DNA of 55,882 bases from a virus. The DNA is taken from positions 1-55,882 of IMG/VR virus record IMGVR_UViG_3300007363_000002; one strand, 5' to 3'. Shown in pieces: positions 4,283 through 47,326 of the stretch; the first letter of the stretch is position 1; every line of letters starts with the position of its first letter. The position numbers and the translations under genes were made by a program. The notes beneath the pieces were generated by a model that saw only the letters and a program-made list of their open reading frames with translations, made no database searches and was not told where the DNA came from.

Positions 4283-4343
4283 AGGGCCGCGCGGATAGCC
4301 GTCCACGCAGCCCAATCAACACCGTCAGTGAGGACAGGTGCCA

Positions 4344-5108
4344 ATGACTAAAGACTTACCACGCGGCGTCACATATAAAAAGGCCCGCCGCAAATATATT
4401 GCTCGCATCGGTGTGCGCGGCAAGAGTATCTCCCTCGGCAGTTTCGATACCGCTGCGGAGGCAGAGGCCGCCTATGCCGCTGCCGTTGAGGTTTACGGCC
4501 CGCGAGACAATATCGGCCTGACGGATGAGCAGAAGGCCAAACACCGCCGCTGGGTTGAACAGCGGCCCACCATCGCCAAAAGTTTTGCCGCCATCGGCGC
4601 GTTCGATCCAGACAACCCGTGGCCTGTTGAGACCACCCGCGTCACGCTGCCGACCAAAGAGGTGTTGGTGTTGGATCACTACACGCGGCAGGTTAATGTT
4701 TACGGCGATCACCTGACCGTTGCGCATTTCAGGGGGAAGTGCGACTTCGGTAAGACGTTGGGCAGCCGCTGCGGCGCGAAAGTGCTCACGCCGTACTGGC
4801 TGGATGGCAGCGACCGACCGGGCGCGATATGGCGGCGGTGTGAGGCCCACGCAAAGAAGAGTTCTCTGCGGTCCTACCACGGTTTTGTAGCGGGGTGGGA
4901 CGCCGCGCACGCCAGTGTGGGTAGGTGCCGCATCGCGGATGGCCCACTGCCTGACAGCGAACGTCGGCCCATGGGACAGCGCGCAAGATATTACCGTGAG
5001 AAATATAATTTGCTCATGGATCTTATCTATGAAAGCTACAGTGATGTTCCAAGCGATTGGTGGCGCAGCCTTCCGCCGTATGTTGTGGCCCCTTGCGCAG
5101 ACGAATGA
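4344..5108 (+). CDS. AP2-domain DNA-binding protein, first rightward gene
   Basis: This 254-residue protein has an AP2/ERF-type DNA-binding domain at residues ~8-50 (GVTYKKARRKYIARI, then ISLGSFDTAAEAEAAY). This fold is usually found fused to phage HNH homing endonucleases. Here the rest has no HNH signature. It has a cysteine-bearing central region (FRGKCDFGKTLGSRCG...WRRCEAHAKK), possibly a zinc site, and an aromatic C-terminus. The start at 4344 is set by GAGGACAGG upstream. Standing first in the rightward block, it could regulate that block or be a domesticated homing enzyme; both are inference. Confidence 0.7.
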   Translation: MTKDLPRGVTYKKARRKYIARIGVRGKSISLGSFDTAAEAEAAYAAAVEVYGPRDNIGLTDEQKAKHRRWVEQRPTIAKSFAAIGAFDPDNPWPVETTRVTLPTKEVLVLDHYTRQVNVYGDHLTVAHFRGKCDFGKTLGSRCGAKVLTPYWLDGSDRPGAIWRRCEAHAKKSSLRSYHGFVAGWDAAHASVGRCRIADGPLPDSERRPMGQRARYYREKYNLLMDLIYESYSDVPSDWWRSLPPYVVAPCADE

Positions 5109-5168
5109 CAGGTGCTATTTGGGCGTCGTGACTGGTAGCACTGTGTAAACGAACGGAGCATGCAGACG

Positions 5169-5621
5169 ATGCCGTACCCGGCGAAGAAGAGTGACAAGTT
5201 GATAGCGGAGGTGCTTGATCGCCTGTCGCTCGGCGAGACTATGACGTCCATCAGCCGCGACTTGAAGTTCAGCACGATGTCGTGGAGCCGGTGGCTCGAA
5301 GAGGACAAAGAGTTGTCGGCCGCCCACGCGCGAGCCAGAGCGGTCGGCGCAGACGCCGTGGCCGACCACGTCATGGAGATCGTGGACGCACCACCAGAGC
5401 GGCACGACGGCAAGATCGACAACGGCTCTATAGCATGGGCGCGCAACCGCGCCGAGTATCGGCTGAAGCTGCTCGGCCACTGGCGGCCGGACAAGTACGG
5501 CACGAAGACCACCACCGAGATCACCGGCAAGGACGGCAAAGAGATTAACCTGATCGACGCGCAGGAACTGGCGCTGCGCCTCGGCGAACGCCTTCGCGCA
5601 TCGAAGCGTGACGCCGAATGA
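5169..5621 (+). CDS. terS: Terminase small subunit
   Basis: The 150-residue product begins with a helix-turn-helix-like region (LIAEVLDRLSLGETMTSISRDLKF.TMSWSRWL). A helical part ends in RNRAEYRLKLLGHWRPDKYG, the R-x-E-x-R-x-K-L-LGxW-P-KYG pattern typical of small terminases that recognise DNA and recruit the large subunit. It lies three genes before terL. An ATG at 5160 is also in frame, but it is one base from the GGAG element; 5169 has a 10-base spacing and is preferred. Confidence 0.85.
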   Translation: MPYPAKKSDKLIAEVLDRLSLGETMTSISRDLKFSTMSWSRWLEEDKELSAAHARARAVGADAVADHVMEIVDAPPERHDGKIDNGSIAWARNRAEYRLKLLGHWRPDKYGTKTTTEITGKDGKEINLIDAQELALRLGERLRASKRDAE

Positions 5622-5976: not shown

Positions 5977-6158
5977 AGCTGGCCCTGTTCACCAACCCAT
6001 GGCGTCGCGTCCGCGAACTTGAGGCCGAGGCGAAGCATCACGCGACCGAGAAGTACGCGCTCAACCACGCGCTGCATCTGGCGAACGAGCGGTACGACAA
6101 GATACGCGCGGCCAACGCCGAACTGCGTGAGACGCTGACACTCTATCGCGATGCTTGA
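5973..6158 (+). CDS. Small coiled-coil protein before terL (61 aa)
   Basis: A basic start (MKLALFTNPWRRV) leads into one long helix with coiled-coil character (RELEAEAKHHATEKYALNHALHL...RAANAELRETL). It is joined to the previous gene by an ATGA overlap and runs 8 bases into terL, so terL translation is probably coupled to it. Function unknown. Confidence 0.7.
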   Translation: MKLALFTNPWRRVRELEAEAKHHATEKYALNHALHLANERYDKIRAANAELRETLTLYRDA

Positions 6159-8409
6159 CGTCCTCGATCCTGCGGTCGTCGCGACACTGCCACCCGAGCT
6201 GCGGGTCTATGTCGACTGGCAGGAGCGCTGGTCGGCCACGGCGCGACCGAACCAGATCCCGCAGGAAGACTTCAGCGAGTGCGGCTTCATGGCCGGGCGC
6301 GGCTTCGGTAAGACACGCATCGGTGCCGAGTGGCTGGGCGCGAAGGCGGCCGAAGTGCCGAACACCTTCTGCGCCGTGATCGCGCCGACCTACGCCGACG
6401 TCAAGCACACGTGCTTCGAAGGTGAGAGCGGCCTGCTCAACGTCATACCCGAGGGGTTGATCAAGCGATACAACAGCTCGGATCTCGTACTCGAGATGAA
6501 GAGCGGAACGACGATACGCGGCTTCACGTCCGAGAAGCCAGCGCGTCTGCGCGGCCCCCAACACGAGTTTATTTGGTGCTTTATCGCGGGCACGCTTGTC
6601 CGCACGCCGTCCGGCGATGCGCCTATCGAGACGCTGCGCCCCGGCGACGTTGTCATGACGCGACGTGGACCGCGAGCCGTGCTGGCCAACAGCCGCCGCG
6701 ATGATCAGCCTGTTGGCGAAGTATCGTTCGACAACGGTGCGAAACTTGTTGGCACGGCGGACCATCCCGTGTATCTTAAATCCGGTTGGACGAGAATGGA
6801 CCAACTACAGATAGGAGATACGGCATGTGCGATCAGTGCATCGAGTGGGGCGGCAAGCGGTGGCACAAATACCGCAGCGGGTATTACGAGCGGACTGACA
6901 AGTCTGTTAAGCCTAAGCGCACGCTTCGCCTTCACCGCGAAGTCTGGCTTGACGCGCACGGCGAAATACCTGCGGGACACGACATCCATCACGTCAATGG
7001 CGACAAGGGCGACAACAGTCTGGACAACCTTGAGTGCCTATCTCACGGCGCACACAAGGCGCACCATATCGCCGACGATCCTATCCCTCGCTGCGACTGG
7101 ACCGCACGACCCGACATCACGTTGGCCTGCGTCGATTGCAAGTGCGAACTTATCCGCAAGCGGGCCACAACCAACCCGCGCTGCCGCAAGTGCGCTCAGG
7201 TCGCAGGTGACGACAAGCGGAAAGTTAAACGCATCTGCCAGTGTTGCGGCACCGAGTTCGTCTCCCGCGCCGGTAACTTCTGTAGCCAGCGTTGCGTCAA
7301 CGTGGCAACCGCAGGGGCGACAGTCCGTGTACTGCCTGAAGGTCGACAGCGAGCCTGAATACTTCGCCAACGGCATCCTCGTCCACAACTGCGACGAGCT
7401 GGCCGCGTGGCAGAACGCCAACGAAACATGGGACATGGCCATGATGGGCCTGCGTCTCGGTAAGGCTCCACAAGTTGTGTGGACCACGACCCCCCGCCCC
7501 GTGGAGCTGGTGCGCAAGCTGATCGTGCCGAAGGCTGGCCGCGTCGTGATCAGCGGCGCGACGTTCGACAACAAGGACAACCTGCCTGACCGCTTCTTCG
7601 AGCAGCTCGAGCAGTACGAGGGCACGACCATCGGCCGGCAGGAACTGTACGGCGAGCTGATCGATCCGGAAGAGAGCGGCGTCATCAAGCGGAGCTGGCT
7701 CAAGTTGTGGCCCGCGAAGAAGCCGCTGCCCGCCTTCGACTGGATCATCATGTCCCTCGACACCGCATACACCGAGGCGACCCGCGACAAGAAGAGCGGC
7801 GAGGCCGACTACACGGCATGCAGCGTCTGGGGCGTGTTCCAGCACGAAACCAAAGGCTACACCATCCTGCTGGACTGCTGGCAGGAGCAGCTCGGCATGC
7901 CCGACCTGATCAAGCGCGTGAAGAAGGAAATGAACACGGCATACGGCGACGATCAGGACGTCGCGTTGATCAAGCCCATGTACGGCAGCGCAAAGCCGCT
8001 GACGTCAGGGCGCAAGCCAGACATCCTGCTGATCGAGGACAAGGGGAGCGGCATCAGCTTGAGACAGATGCTCGAACGCGAGGGCATATTGGCGCACGCC
8101 TATAACCCCGGTCGGGCAGACAAGCTGGCGCGCCTGCACGTGGTCAGCCCGGTGTTCGCCCGGCGCAGGGTGTTCCTGCCCGAGAGCGACAAGTTCCCCG
8201 GCAAGCCGCGCGTCTGGTCCGACCCGCTGGTGGCGCAGCTATGCAGCTTCACCGGCAAGGGGAGCATCAAGCACGACGACTTCGTGGACAGCACGACGCA
8301 GGCCTTCCGCCTCATGATGGACAAGGGCATGCTCGGCACGCTGATCGACAAGCGGCGAGAGATAGACAAACCACCGCCGAAGGTGATACAGAACCCGTAC
8401 GGGCAATAA
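6151..8409 (+). CDS. terL: Terminase large subunit precursor, interrupted by an intein
   Basis: The 752-residue precursor gives a 481-residue terminase after removal of 271 intein residues. The ATPase has Walker A GRGFGKT (49-55). Its Walker B reads FIW|CDEL, with the intein inserted exactly before the Cys that precedes the catalytic Asp-Glu; after it come AAWQNANETWD and the coupling motif TTTPRP. The C-terminal nuclease domain has IIMSLDTAY, ILLIEDKGSG and HDDFVDS acidic sites, as in the Terminase_6 C-terminal family. The enzyme packages DNA through the portal. Without splicing, Walker B would be broken, so packaging should depend on the intein. Confidence 0.95.
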   Translation: MLDVLDPAVVATLPPELRVYVDWQERWSATARPNQIPQEDFSECGFMAGRGFGKTRIGAEWLGAKAAEVPNTFCAVIAPTYADVKHTCFEGESGLLNVIPEGLIKRYNSSDLVLEMKSGTTIRGFTSEKPARLRGPQHEFIWCFIAGTLVRTPSGDAPIETLRPGDVVMTRRGPRAVLANSRRDDQPVGEVSFDNGAKLVGTADHPVYLKSGWTRMDQLQIGDTACAISASSGAASGGTNTAAGITSGLTSLLSLSARFAFTAKSGLTRTAKYLRDTTSITSMATRATTVWTTLSAYLTAHTRRTISPTILSLAATGPHDPTSRWPASIASANLSASGPQPTRAAASALRSQVTTSGKLNASASVAAPSSSPAPVTSVASVASTWQPQGRQSVYCLKVDSEPEYFANGILVHNCDELAAWQNANETWDMAMMGLRLGKAPQVVWTTTPRPVELVRKLIVPKAGRVVISGATFDNKDNLPDRFFEQLEQYEGTTIGRQELYGELIDPEESGVIKRSWLKLWPAKKPLPAFDWIIMSLDTAYTEATRDKKSGEADYTACSVWGVFQHETKGYTILLDCWQEQLGMPDLIKRVKKEMNTAYGDDQDVALIKPMYGSAKPLTSGRKPDILLIEDKGSGISLRQMLEREGILAHAYNPGRADKLARLHVVSPVFARRRVFLPESDKFPGKPRVWSDPLVAQLCSFTGKGSIKHDDFVDSTTQAFRLMMDKGMLGTLIDKRREIDKPPPKVIQNPYGQ
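6577..7389 (+). mobile_element. Intein in terL Walker B, without an in-frame endonuclease
   Basis: These 271 codons form a Hint-type intein. Block A starts with Cys1 (CFIAGTLVRTPSGDAPIETL...PGDVV). Block B is GTADHPVY (Thr at 6754, His at 6763). Block F is VYCLKV...EYFANGILV and block G is HN, followed by Cys+1 at 7390. All standard splicing residues (Cys1, T-x-x-H, penultimate His, Asn, Cys+1) are visible. Between about 6825 and 7325 the intein frame encodes only a Ser/Thr/Ala-rich, low-complexity linker with no LAGLIDADG or HNH motif. That segment is the HNH gene in another frame. Blocks A and B upstream and F and G downstream are in one frame, so one DNA error could not explain the arrangement. 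Confidence 0.92.
6825..7358 (+). CDS. HNH homing endonuclease nested out of frame inside the intein
   Basis: This 177-residue protein is read +2 relative to terL. Its ATG has AGGAG at 6813-6817, seven bases upstream; an in-frame TTG at 6786 is a weaker alternative start. The HNH core lies at residues ~35-80: LHREVWLDAHGEIPAGH, DIHHVNGD, NSLDNLECLS and AHKAHH. This is the HNH_3 pattern, with the expected His-His, Asn and His positions. An N-terminal CDQC and two C-terminal zinc knuckles (CVDC...CRKC; CQCC...CSQRC) would bind metal. It presumably cuts intein-free terL alleles to spread the intein. Its final ten codons overlap splicing block F, and it ends 31 bases before the intein does. Confidence 0.9.
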   Translation: MCDQCIEWGGKRWHKYRSGYYERTDKSVKPKRTLRLHREVWLDAHGEIPAGHDIHHVNGDKGDNSLDNLECLSHGAHKAHHIADDPIPRCDWTARPDITLACVDCKCELIRKRATTNPRCRKCAQVAGDDKRKVKRICQCCGTEFVSRAGNFCSQRCVNVATAGATVRVLPEGRQRA

Positions 8410-44655: not shown

Positions 44656-46623
44656 TCAATCCTTCTTGTAGCGGTGGGTCTCGAACCCAGCCGCAGCCAG
44701 CGGCAGGCCGACGGCCCACGACGGGTTGGTGGCCATGATCGACGCAAGCTGCGCCACACTGTATTCGGGCGTGTCCGGCGTCTCGGTAATCAGCTCGTCA
44801 TGCACGCGGATGCAGACTTCGTAGCCGTGCTCCTCCGCGCCGACCATGCCGGTCATGAAGACGTCGCGGGCGACGGCCTGAACGATGTTCTCCACCAGCT
44901 TGCCGCCGTACGTCTCGATGCGCTCCCACTTCTTAGTGTACTGGTTCACGCCCTCAAACGTGACGCGCGCGTCCTCGATCTTGGCGTTGCGGTAGGACAG
45001 GTAGCGCCCGCTGGGCAGCTTGATGCGCAGCCATCCGTCCTTCATGTCGAAGTGGAGCAGGCCGCGCACGTCGAAGCTCTCGCCCTTGCCGCGCACTGCC
45101 GCGCGCGCCGCGCCCTCGACGTCGTACCAGAGGCTCTTTGTCGCAGAGTGCGCCGTGCGCCACGCGGTCACCAGCGGCTTGATCTCGTCGTCCGTCATGG
45201 CCGCGACCGCAGGGCCGCCCATCGTGCGGAAGGCTCCGACGCCGCCCTGATAGCCGCACGCCAGCTCCATCGTCTTGCCGTACTGGCGCATGGACCCGTC
45301 GCCGTTCTTCTTGTTATCGACCACCACTTCGGGGTCGACGTTGAAGCCCTTGGCGTAGGCGACCACGTACAGGTCGTGCCCGATGCCACGGTCGAAGTCG
45401 TAGAAGGCCTTAATCTTCCAGTCCTCACCGGCCAGCCACGCAAGCACGCGGCCCTCGATGTTGGACAAGTCGGCGATGACCAGCTTGCGGCCCGCAGGGG
45501 CCACCAGACAGCCGCGCACGGCGGACGAACACAGGTCGGTCACGTTGTCGAACAGCAGATCTTCACAGTCCAGCTTCATGGCGGAGATGCCGGTCTCGAT
45601 CTCGTCGGCGTCCATCACGGGGCGCGGCAGGTTCTGCGGCTGGAATATCCGCCCCGCGTCGCGGCCTGTGCGCGATGCGCCGCAGAACTGGAGCGTGCCG
45701 CGCAGGCGACCGTCGGACGACGTGGCGTCGAGCAGCACCTTATATTTTGCCGGTGAGGTGGCCGCCGCCTGCTGCCGGATCTCCAACAGCTCACGCACGA
45801 AGGGCGTCAGGCTGCTGCTGCGGAGCAGTTCGGCGACGGTGGACTTAGTCAGGTTCTCCGGCGTGAAATTGTGGTAGTCCCGCAGGTACTGTAGGAAGCG
45901 CGCGCCCTGCGTCAGCTTCGTTACGTGGCCGCCTGTTAGATCGGCTGCACGAGCGGCCAGAGTTCCTGAAGTTCTTCGAAAAGCTCGAAGGGCTGCGTGG
46001 GCGAGTTCAAGGTCGATGGCGATGCCACGGTCATTAACTCTTTGGTCAATTCGCCAAAGGTTCCGCTCACTCCGACTATTGTTCCAATTCGGCAGGCGTC
46101 CATATACGTCTCGCATCGCGTCCACATCGAGGCGGGCGTATTCGATGAACTCGTTCCATTCGGTGGGGTGACTGACACTGTCCGCTCTCCTCAACTTCAT
46201 ATTCTTCGGCCGTGGCTTCGTGAATAAGTGTATCAGCTTTTTGCCTGCCTTGTCTTTAGCTTTGTCGGTAGGCACACCCAATACGTCGCACAGCGTGCCC
46301 AGCGAACCGGGAAGGCTGTGGGCGAGCGCCTGCACCATCGTGTCGCGGATCTTCTCGACGGGTATGTTTACGCCGCAGTGGCGCAGCACGGTGCGGTCGA
46401 AGTGACTGTTGTGGATAACAACGGTGTCGGCATGATCAACAGCCCACTGCAACGTGCCCATCCATTTGTCCCACCCCTCGGTGGCGCAGTCTAAGACGGT
46501 CACCGGCTCGTCGTCCCAAGCGAAGGCAACCAGCAGCACTTCCGCCTCTTCGGCGTAGCGATGCGTCCCGTGCGTGATCGGCACTTCGCTGTAGGTCTCA
46601 ATATCCAAAAAGAGTACGGTCAT
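44656..46623 (-). CDS. DNA polymerase, family A, with 3'-5' exonuclease
   Basis: The 655-residue enzyme replicates the phage genome. The exonuclease domain has LFLDIETYSEV (Exo I), VVIHNSHFDRTVL (Exo II) and EYARLDVDAMRDV (Exo III). The polymerase domain has VIADLSNIEGRVLAWLAG (motif A, ~383), RQYGKTMELACGYQGGVG (motif B) and VCIRVHDELITETP (motif C, ~605). There is no 5'-3' exonuclease. In motif A, DLSNIEGR replaces the usual DYSQIELR, a change seen in many phage family A enzymes. The ATG at 46623 overlaps the stop of an HNH endonuclease gene. Confidence 0.92.
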   Translation of the reverse strand: MTVLFLDIETYSEVPITHGTHRYAEEAEVLLVAFAWDDEPVTVLDCATEGWDKWMGTLQWAVDHADTVVIHNSHFDRTVLRHCGVNIPVEKIRDTMVQALAHSLPGSLGTLCDVLGVPTDKAKDKAGKKLIHLFTKPRPKNMKLRRADSVSHPTEWNEFIEYARLDVDAMRDVYGRLPNWNNSRSERNLWRIDQRVNDRGIAIDLELAHAALRAFRRTSGTLAARAADLTGGHVTKLTQGARFLQYLRDYHNFTPENLTKSTVAELLRSSSLTPFVRELLEIRQQAAATSPAKYKVLLDATSSDGRLRGTLQFCGASRTGRDAGRIFQPQNLPRPVMDADEIETGISAMKLDCEDLLFDNVTDLCSSAVRGCLVAPAGRKLVIADLSNIEGRVLAWLAGEDWKIKAFYDFDRGIGHDLYVVAYAKGFNVDPEVVVDNKKNGDGSMRQYGKTMELACGYQGGVGAFRTMGGPAVAAMTDDEIKPLVTAWRTAHSATKSLWYDVEGAARAAVRGKGESFDVRGLLHFDMKDGWLRIKLPSGRYLSYRNAKIEDARVTFEGVNQYTKKWERIETYGGKLVENIVQAVARDVFMTGMVGAEEHGYEVCIRVHDELITETPDTPEYSVAQLASIMATNPSWAVGLPLAAAGFETHRYKKD

Positions 46624-47030
46624 TTCCAGCGCGCCCCAATCAACCAATGTGGGTAAGGCCTATTGCCAGCAGCGTAATCCATGCGCATATTTTCGCTGCG
46701 AGTGCCGTATTTTAAATTAGACGCGCAGTTGTCAGCAGGGTCGTGGTTCAAATGCAAAACTTCACACCCAGCAGGGCACCGCCCAACAAAGGCTTCCATC
46801 ACTAGTTGATGCACAAGGCGGCTATTACCTTTGCCTATCGCTACGGATAGGTGTCCGCTACGTGTCCGCCCCGGACGCAACAAGCGCGAAGGAACCCGCC
46901 TAGTCGTTTCACCAGCTTGTTTCGTCACTAGACGTACGCGGCGCTCTAACGAACGGACGCGACCTTGATCGCTAACTTCGTACGCACTTTCAGCACCCAC
47001 AACGGGTTTCCAAGTTTCTAAGATGGTCAT
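46620..47030 (-). CDS. HNH homing endonuclease with NUMOD4 domain (136 aa)
   Basis: The N-terminal NUMOD4 module (ETWKPVVGAESAYEVSDQGR, VRSL) binds DNA. The middle (GHLSVAIGKGNSRLVHQLVM EAF) and end (CEVLHLNHDPADNCASNLKY, GTRSENMRMDYAAGN) carry the HNH core. It is a free-standing selfish gene wedged directly before the polymerase, with ATGA and TGATG overlaps on its two sides. Such enzymes often cut near conserved genes of related phages to spread. The catalytic pattern looks intact. Confidence 0.85.
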   Translation of the reverse strand: MTILETWKPVVGAESAYEVSDQGRVRSLERRVRLVTKQAGETTRRVPSRLLRPGRTRSGHLSVAIGKGNSRLVHQLVMEAFVGRCPAGCEVLHLNHDPADNCASNLKYGTRSENMRMDYAAGNRPYPHWLIGARWK

Positions 47031-47326
47031 CAACGCTTCCCGTGCAAGATCTCGCTGACGCGGCCCGGATTGATGTTATGCGCTTCGGCAATCTCTTGAT
47101 GCGACGCGTCGGGGTTGGCTGCCGCCATGGCGCGGACAGACGCGCGCACGTCAGCCGTGATGCGCCTGTTCTTCACGGGCGTGCGCGTGTAGCTGCGGCG
47201 GTACGTCTCCTGCATCAACGCGTTGATGCGCAAGTTTATCGCGTACTGACGACGGGCTAACTTTGTGCCTTCATCAGTCAGCTCGGCGATTAAGTCGCGG
47301 ATCTGGGGTATGGTAAGTTTGGTCAT
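47030..47326 (-). CDS. Helix-turn-helix protein (98 aa)
   Basis: The N-terminal helices (IPQIRDLIAELTDEGTKLAR) precede a basic stretch (RRSYTRTPVKNRRI). A C-terminal HTH follows (ADVRASVRAMAAANPDASHQ, then EIAEAHNINPGRVSEILHGK). The ATG at 47326 follows TTGAGGGAGAATATC. A long stem-loop sits just upstream of the ribosome-binding site, which may regulate it. Possibly a regulator of the replication genes downstream. Confidence 0.72.
   Translation of the reverse strand: MTKLTIPQIRDLIAELTDEGTKLARRQYAINLRINALMQETYRRSYTRTPVKNRRITADVRASVRAMAAANPDASHQEIAEAHNINPGRVSEILHGKR

Follow-up and report, generated by a model that had tools for sequence, protein, structure and literature searches.

The analyzed window comprises positions 1 to 55,882 of the IMG/VR virus record IMGVR_UViG_3300007363_000002 and contains a gene for the large terminase subunit (terL) whose single open frame encodes both exteins and an intein (Table 1). 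A profile search of the window placed terminase matches on both sides of the intein, which is inserted at RGPQHEFIW/CDELAAW in the Walker B region (here and below, the slash marks the insertion point). Blocks A, B, F and G, which the initial annotation had placed in the terL frame, are all present and include Cys1, block B GTADHPV with its T..H residues, block F VYCLKVDSEPEYFANG, block G ILVHN/C, the C-terminal His-Asn and C+1. The element is a class-1 type intein (C1...HN/C). Pfam profiles matched Hint_2 (1.6e-9) and Intein_splicing (6.8e-7, under its cut-off), and the NCBIfam model intein_Cterm exceeded its cut-off. Residues C1, T60 and H63 of the N-terminal half and H270 and N271 of the C-terminal half are invariant among relatives. 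The AF2 model of the intein shows a confident Hint fold, with PDB matches to gp41-1 (TMt 0.83-0.84), Mtu RecA (0.82) and DnaB inteins, and protein splicing is the predicted activity. The Ser/Thr/Ala-rich filler described earlier between blocks B and F was recovered as an open linker that is predicted to be disordered.

Table 1. Features of the terL locus. Positions refer to the window.
Feature	Position	Strand	Description
terL (large terminase)	6151..8409	+	one open frame with exteins and intein; Terminase_6N 6.2e-16, Terminase_6C 3.9e-5
Intein	6577..7389	+	271 aa, Cys1 to His-Asn; between W142 and C+1
N-terminal splicing half, Hint fold (blocks A, B)	6577..6834	+	intein residues 1-86; pLDDT 95-98
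AGGAG, ribosome-binding-like	6814..6818	+	~7 nt upstream of the HNH ATG; made by codons of the conserved intein Gly-Asp
HNH homing-endonuclease gene, predicted	6825..7358	+	177 codons, ATG; HNH_3 1.7e-14; -1 (+2) frame relative to terL
Intein-frame linker, Ser/Thr/Ala-rich	6844..7260	+	residues ~90-228; open, mostly disordered, pLDDT 32-64
C-terminal splicing half (blocks F, G)	7276..7389	+	residues 234-271; pLDDT 88-97

The linker DNA also contains a zinc-finger HNH gene, whose codons begin one base ahead of the terL codons (frame -1, equivalent to +2). The initial annotation of an intein that harbours this gene with its own AGGAG and ATG proved exact in coordinates and anatomy. Residues H37, H55, H56 and H77 and the zinc-type cysteines are invariant in 19 core relatives. 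AlphaFold predicted two folds from the two frames, with a pLDDT of 88.7 for the HNH protein and of at least 88 for the Hint halves around the disordered middle. The best PDB fold match of the HNH protein was the homing enzyme I-HmuI, which shares its HNH catalytic fold, although the two structures agree only in part overall (TM 0.37). A PDB sequence search with the HNH profile gave no match, and I-HmuI was obtained from the fold search only. I-HmuI is encoded in a group I intron and does not overlap an intein. The HNH motif, the catalytic and zinc residues, and the patchy site occupancy with empty alleles described below point to a homing endonuclease with predicted cleavage activity.

Viral contigs were searched twice independently, with an intein query and with an HNH query, and alignment-based searches added further loci. 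Both searches of the viral contigs gave overlapping loci with identical layout, and 90 distinct viral inteins were left once near-duplicates had been dropped. The HNH gene lies in the +2 (= -1) relative frame in all 90 viral inteins and in all 19 bacterial or archaeal inteins (18 bacterial, one archaeal). Homologues whose HNH shares the intein frame, which the initial annotation had named as a sign of an assembly artefact, were sought and found in none of the 109 HNH-bearing inteins of the viral and bacterial/archaeal searches. The same searches can detect in-frame endonucleases, as the in-frame LAGLIDADG intein L235 was recovered, and a frame-blind search with the HNH profile only agreed on the relative frame. 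The layout is present in the independently deposited Acinetobacter phage Highwayman, Tetrasphaera phage TJE1 and Rhodobacteraceae phage LS06-2018-MD07, where the copies are annotated merely as terminase large subunit. A first scan of bacterial and archaeal genome contigs with the HNH profile returned nothing and the inteins were found by the intein-profile scan; bacterial carriers include Beijerinckia mobilis, Frankia sp. AgB32, Rhizobium lusitanum and Bacteroides mediterraneensis. Insertion sites of the nested-HNH inteins are many and chiefly terminase-like motifs. The archaeal case (L227, 2501-3457) stems from a Methanimicrococcus MAG and contains TAG in both the intein and the HNH frame. 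As this genome encodes PylS (369 bits versus a cut-off of 178), TAG should be readable through, and the TAGs in both frames are probably read as pyrrolysine. Two nested-frame inteins on one contig were observed for L018, L026, L028 and L256.

For a test of stop avoidance, synonymous codons were permuted within each HNH gene and intein-frame stops were counted over the HNH. The window alone contains no such stop versus 2.55 expected (P=0.02). This single case is only suggestive of a maintained frame, and such a value would also suit a relic or chance arrangement (a dead HNH and accidentally open frames) or an in-frame HNH intein that an assembly or frameshift artefact had altered. Among the 90 distinct viral inteins, no intein-frame stop was detected over the HNH versus 172 expected, which is overwhelming evidence for the openness of this frame at the family level; the joint probability is descriptive only, as the inteins have common ancestry. 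The set was limited to loci with both intein halves in one open reading frame, and HNH-bearing inteins thereby set aside were L040 (truly interrupted), L108 (open; its block G escaped the profile) and L227 (from the genome set, with TAG and pyrrolysine). Free-standing homologues of the nested HNH served as a control and contained 108 stops versus 109.8 expected, with an open frame in one of 11. An NTG codon followed by A, which creates TGA in the intein frame, occurs in 0/448 cases in nested HNH genes, compared with 43/158 in free-standing ones and 246/918 in terL exteins.

The coding capacity of the overlap was analyzed in six close pairs. Substitutions were distributed over HNH codon positions 1, 2 and 3 as 60, 60 and 218, and amino-acid identity was 0.915 for the HNH, 0.761 for the intein frame and 0.757 for the unused third frame. 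No amino-acid constraint beyond the third-frame level was seen in the intein frame of the overlap, and the alignment of the core relatives contained no invariant linker columns in this frame. The substitution pattern and the frame identities therefore show that purifying selection acts on the HNH at the protein level, whereas the intein frame is only kept open. In agreement with the AlphaFold models, this identifies the HNH reading frame as the one that codes for protein in the overlap; the intein frame there is an open linker, modeled as disordered within an intact Hint fold. The selection on both frames that had been proposed initially thus applies to the amino acids of the HNH and to the openness of the intein frame, but not to the amino acids of the intein frame. 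A relic, chance or artefact is refuted by the family data and its probability is considered negligible: the frame relation is common to 109 members, it is accompanied by stop avoidance and protein-level HNH constraint, and isolates from different sequencing groups have the same layout. The conservation of this relation in independently sequenced isolates also excludes the compensating indels that had been raised as a concern.

In the core group, the position of the HNH start varies little and lies 242-257 nt into the intein, and 89 of the 90 members have a usable start codon. An SD-like site was found ahead of a candidate start in 30 of the 90 members versus 16% expected under the same rule, a count that is confounded by the intein Gly-Asp codons; that only about a third have a clear SD counts against the explanation preferred below. 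A conserved SD, clear in the window, was consequently rejected as a family-wide feature. Alternatively, the HNH could be made as a fusion with the N-terminal parts of TerL and the intein via -1 ribosomal frameshifting, given the -1 frame of the HNH relative to terL and the many members in which this frame also stays open ahead of the start. However, in L002, L027 and L028 the codon just before the HNH start already closes this frame, which favours internal initiation over frameshifting. In addition, a slippery-site scan detected no canonical slippery heptamer in window positions 6770-6830, and the start codon is found at a conserved place. Frameshifting is considered very unlikely, and internal initiation is the preferred reading.

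An extein search yielded 80 terL relatives with 69-95% identity, of which 64 have an uninterrupted site and two contain the intein; ten more are uninterrupted but differ in the +1 residue, and four stop short of the site. Relative to the intein-less alleles, the insertion is precise. Mini-inteins without HNH were found at the same site and L011 keeps the last ~40 HNH residues, which would match the expected decay of a homing endonuclease. The loss of the HNH in close relatives, which had been proposed to argue against function, was thus indeed seen, as a homing life cycle predicts. Comparison of L011 and L013 revealed C-exteins with 99% identity and intein N-blocks with 63% identity. Between the window and L002, DNA identity amounts to 91% in the C-extein, 84% and 94% at the intein ends and 67% in the HNH overlap, which suggests that the nested HNH gene is replaceable separately from its intein. 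L016 has a highly divergent splicing domain (29-38% identity) and an HNH N-terminal half that is as close as others (55-60%). The HNH phylogeny showed no significant conflict with the extein grouping (AU p=0.50). No topological proof of transfer is therefore claimed, and the evidence for the proposed horizontal movement consists of the patchy presence and the intein/extein identity contrasts.

Free-standing HNH relatives adjoin terL, terS or portal genes, and HNH proteins are known in DNA packaging according to a citation in PMC12613952 (Kala et al. 2014). The nested HNH might accordingly be a packaging partner of the terminase that is stored in the intein by chance and has no homing role. This explanation appears unlikely, as both the intein and this HNH are absent from the site in most sister phages whose TerL is 90-95% identical, mini-inteins persist without HNH, the nested HNH is found at many different insertion sites, its best structural match is a homing enzyme and a different nuclease family is nested in other inteins.

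We consider it highly probable that the locus is a mobile intein built of two overlapping genes, with splicing and homing encoded separately. The observed basis for this explanation consists of the anatomy, the maintenance of both frames, the recurrence of the layout, the empty sites and the patchy presence, while splicing, HNH translation, cleavage and homing are predicted. The earlier proposal of separate overlapping genes is supported, and both frames are maintained; the nuclease and splicing activities are predictions. In the proposed mechanism, the terL frame would encode an ordinary Hint-fold intein in which an open, disordered linker fills the central endonuclease position, and the -1 frame of the linker DNA would encode, from its own start codon, the zinc-finger HNH homing endonuclease. 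Translation of terL would yield a TerL-intein precursor that is spliced to active TerL, and internal initiation would yield a separate HNH protein. This protein is expected to cut intein-less terL alleles at the conserved RGPQ..W/CDE coding site, and repair of the cut would copy in the whole intein together with the nested gene. As a protein apart from the intein, the HNH could be expressed, lost and replaced separately, provided that the intein frame stays stop-free.

The usual picture of an intein is a single polypeptide that combines two activities. Under the name 'fractured genes', Dassa et al. reportedly described in 2009 split inteins whose two halves flank a free-standing endonuclease gene. 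These share with the present locus an endonuclease encoded apart from the intein halves; their intein frame is interrupted, whereas the frame described here is continuous and overlaps the nuclease gene. Assignment to this type was rejected on account of the continuous frame in the window and in the 90 viral relatives, with an interruption only in L040. The mycobacteriophage TerL inteins BAKA and Bethlehem contain a LAGLIDADG endonuclease fused in frame (PMC5050341). The Hint splicing fold, the B-F position of the endonuclease and the insertion into a terminase active-site motif are shared with these classical mobile inteins, but here the nuclease has a gene of its own in a different reading frame, and the middle of the intein frame is predicted to be disordered. 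A classical in-frame architecture was rejected, as it is found in none of the HNH-bearing relatives. The closest prior art is the ShiLan domain and Pacc40 insertion, in which a zinc-finger HNH gene lies out of frame within a phage-gene insertion that is itself in frame and stop-free (Arsenault, Gosselin and Gogarten 2025, PMC11855218). For ShiLan, splicing domains and an RBS were not found and the host protein is thought to retain the insert (PMC11855218). An out-of-frame HNH in a stop-free insertion is common to both systems, whereas a complete intein surrounds the HNH in terL, and the complete splicing domains led to the rejection of a ShiLan-type element. Full-text searches of the literature found no report of a contiguous intein with an endonuclease in another frame; a 2025 preprint by Gosselin et al. 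(10.1101/2025.01.02.630785), with a title on Actinobacteriophage inteins and 'Non-Canonical Architecture', may overlap and may already describe some out-of-frame intein endonucleases. By kind, the locus represents a mobile intein whose gene architecture is new.

The nested layout is also used by other nucleases. In L088, L141, L231, L254 and L265, an open reading frame for a zinc-finger nuclease of the DUF559/PD-(D/E)XK type is nested in the +1 frame, with no intein-frame stops versus 7-13 expected in each; the insertion motif in L231, L254 and L265 is VDE/CH or similar and helicase-like. As this nuclease occupies the opposite frame, the nested layout arose at least twice. L012 contains a different HNH family nested in frame +2. 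In L040 (Vibrio phage 1.238.A, 1376-2461), the terL frame ends behind the N-terminal half of the intein and reopens, without a change of frame, at the C-terminal half, which is annotated separately as a 'hedgehog/hint domain protein'. The +2-frame HNH bridges the gap and overlaps both intein reading frames. L040 is possibly a natural intermediate from the nested to the fractured state, in which a split intein was derived from a nested one. On balance, nested-frame mobile inteins seem likely to be a widespread, unrecognised class with at least two origins (HNH in +2, mostly in terminase inteins, and DUF559/PD-(D/E)XK in +1, in helicase-type inteins), in which the endonuclease evolves as an independent gene overprinted on the linker and which leads on towards split inteins whose endonucleases are free-standing, as exemplified by Vibrio phage 1.238.A.

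A large family with both activities split into overlapping genes changes how mobile inteins have to be detected, as standard annotation presents nested-frame inteins as just TerL with an odd disordered insert. The more than 100 natural overlapping genes, with one frame constrained in sequence and the other only open, provide useful material for studies of overprinting, and the layout offers a route to split inteins. The nested HNHs also constitute a compact set of predicted free homing nucleases with conserved viral targets.

Acinetobacter phage BP10 contains a free-standing HNH adjoining terS (L273, 1498-2139) that is 50% identical to the terL-intein HNH of Highwayman (L041, 1420-2064); judged by their sequences, the two represent one nuclease lineage, outside and inside an intein. 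In the window, a second, weak HNH-profile match (E 2e-7) is located outside any intein at 46623-47075 on the minus strand. An open reading frame with a weak AP2-domain match (4338-5108), possibly another homing-type DNA-binding protein, lies immediately upstream of the terS-like open reading frame at 5160-5621.
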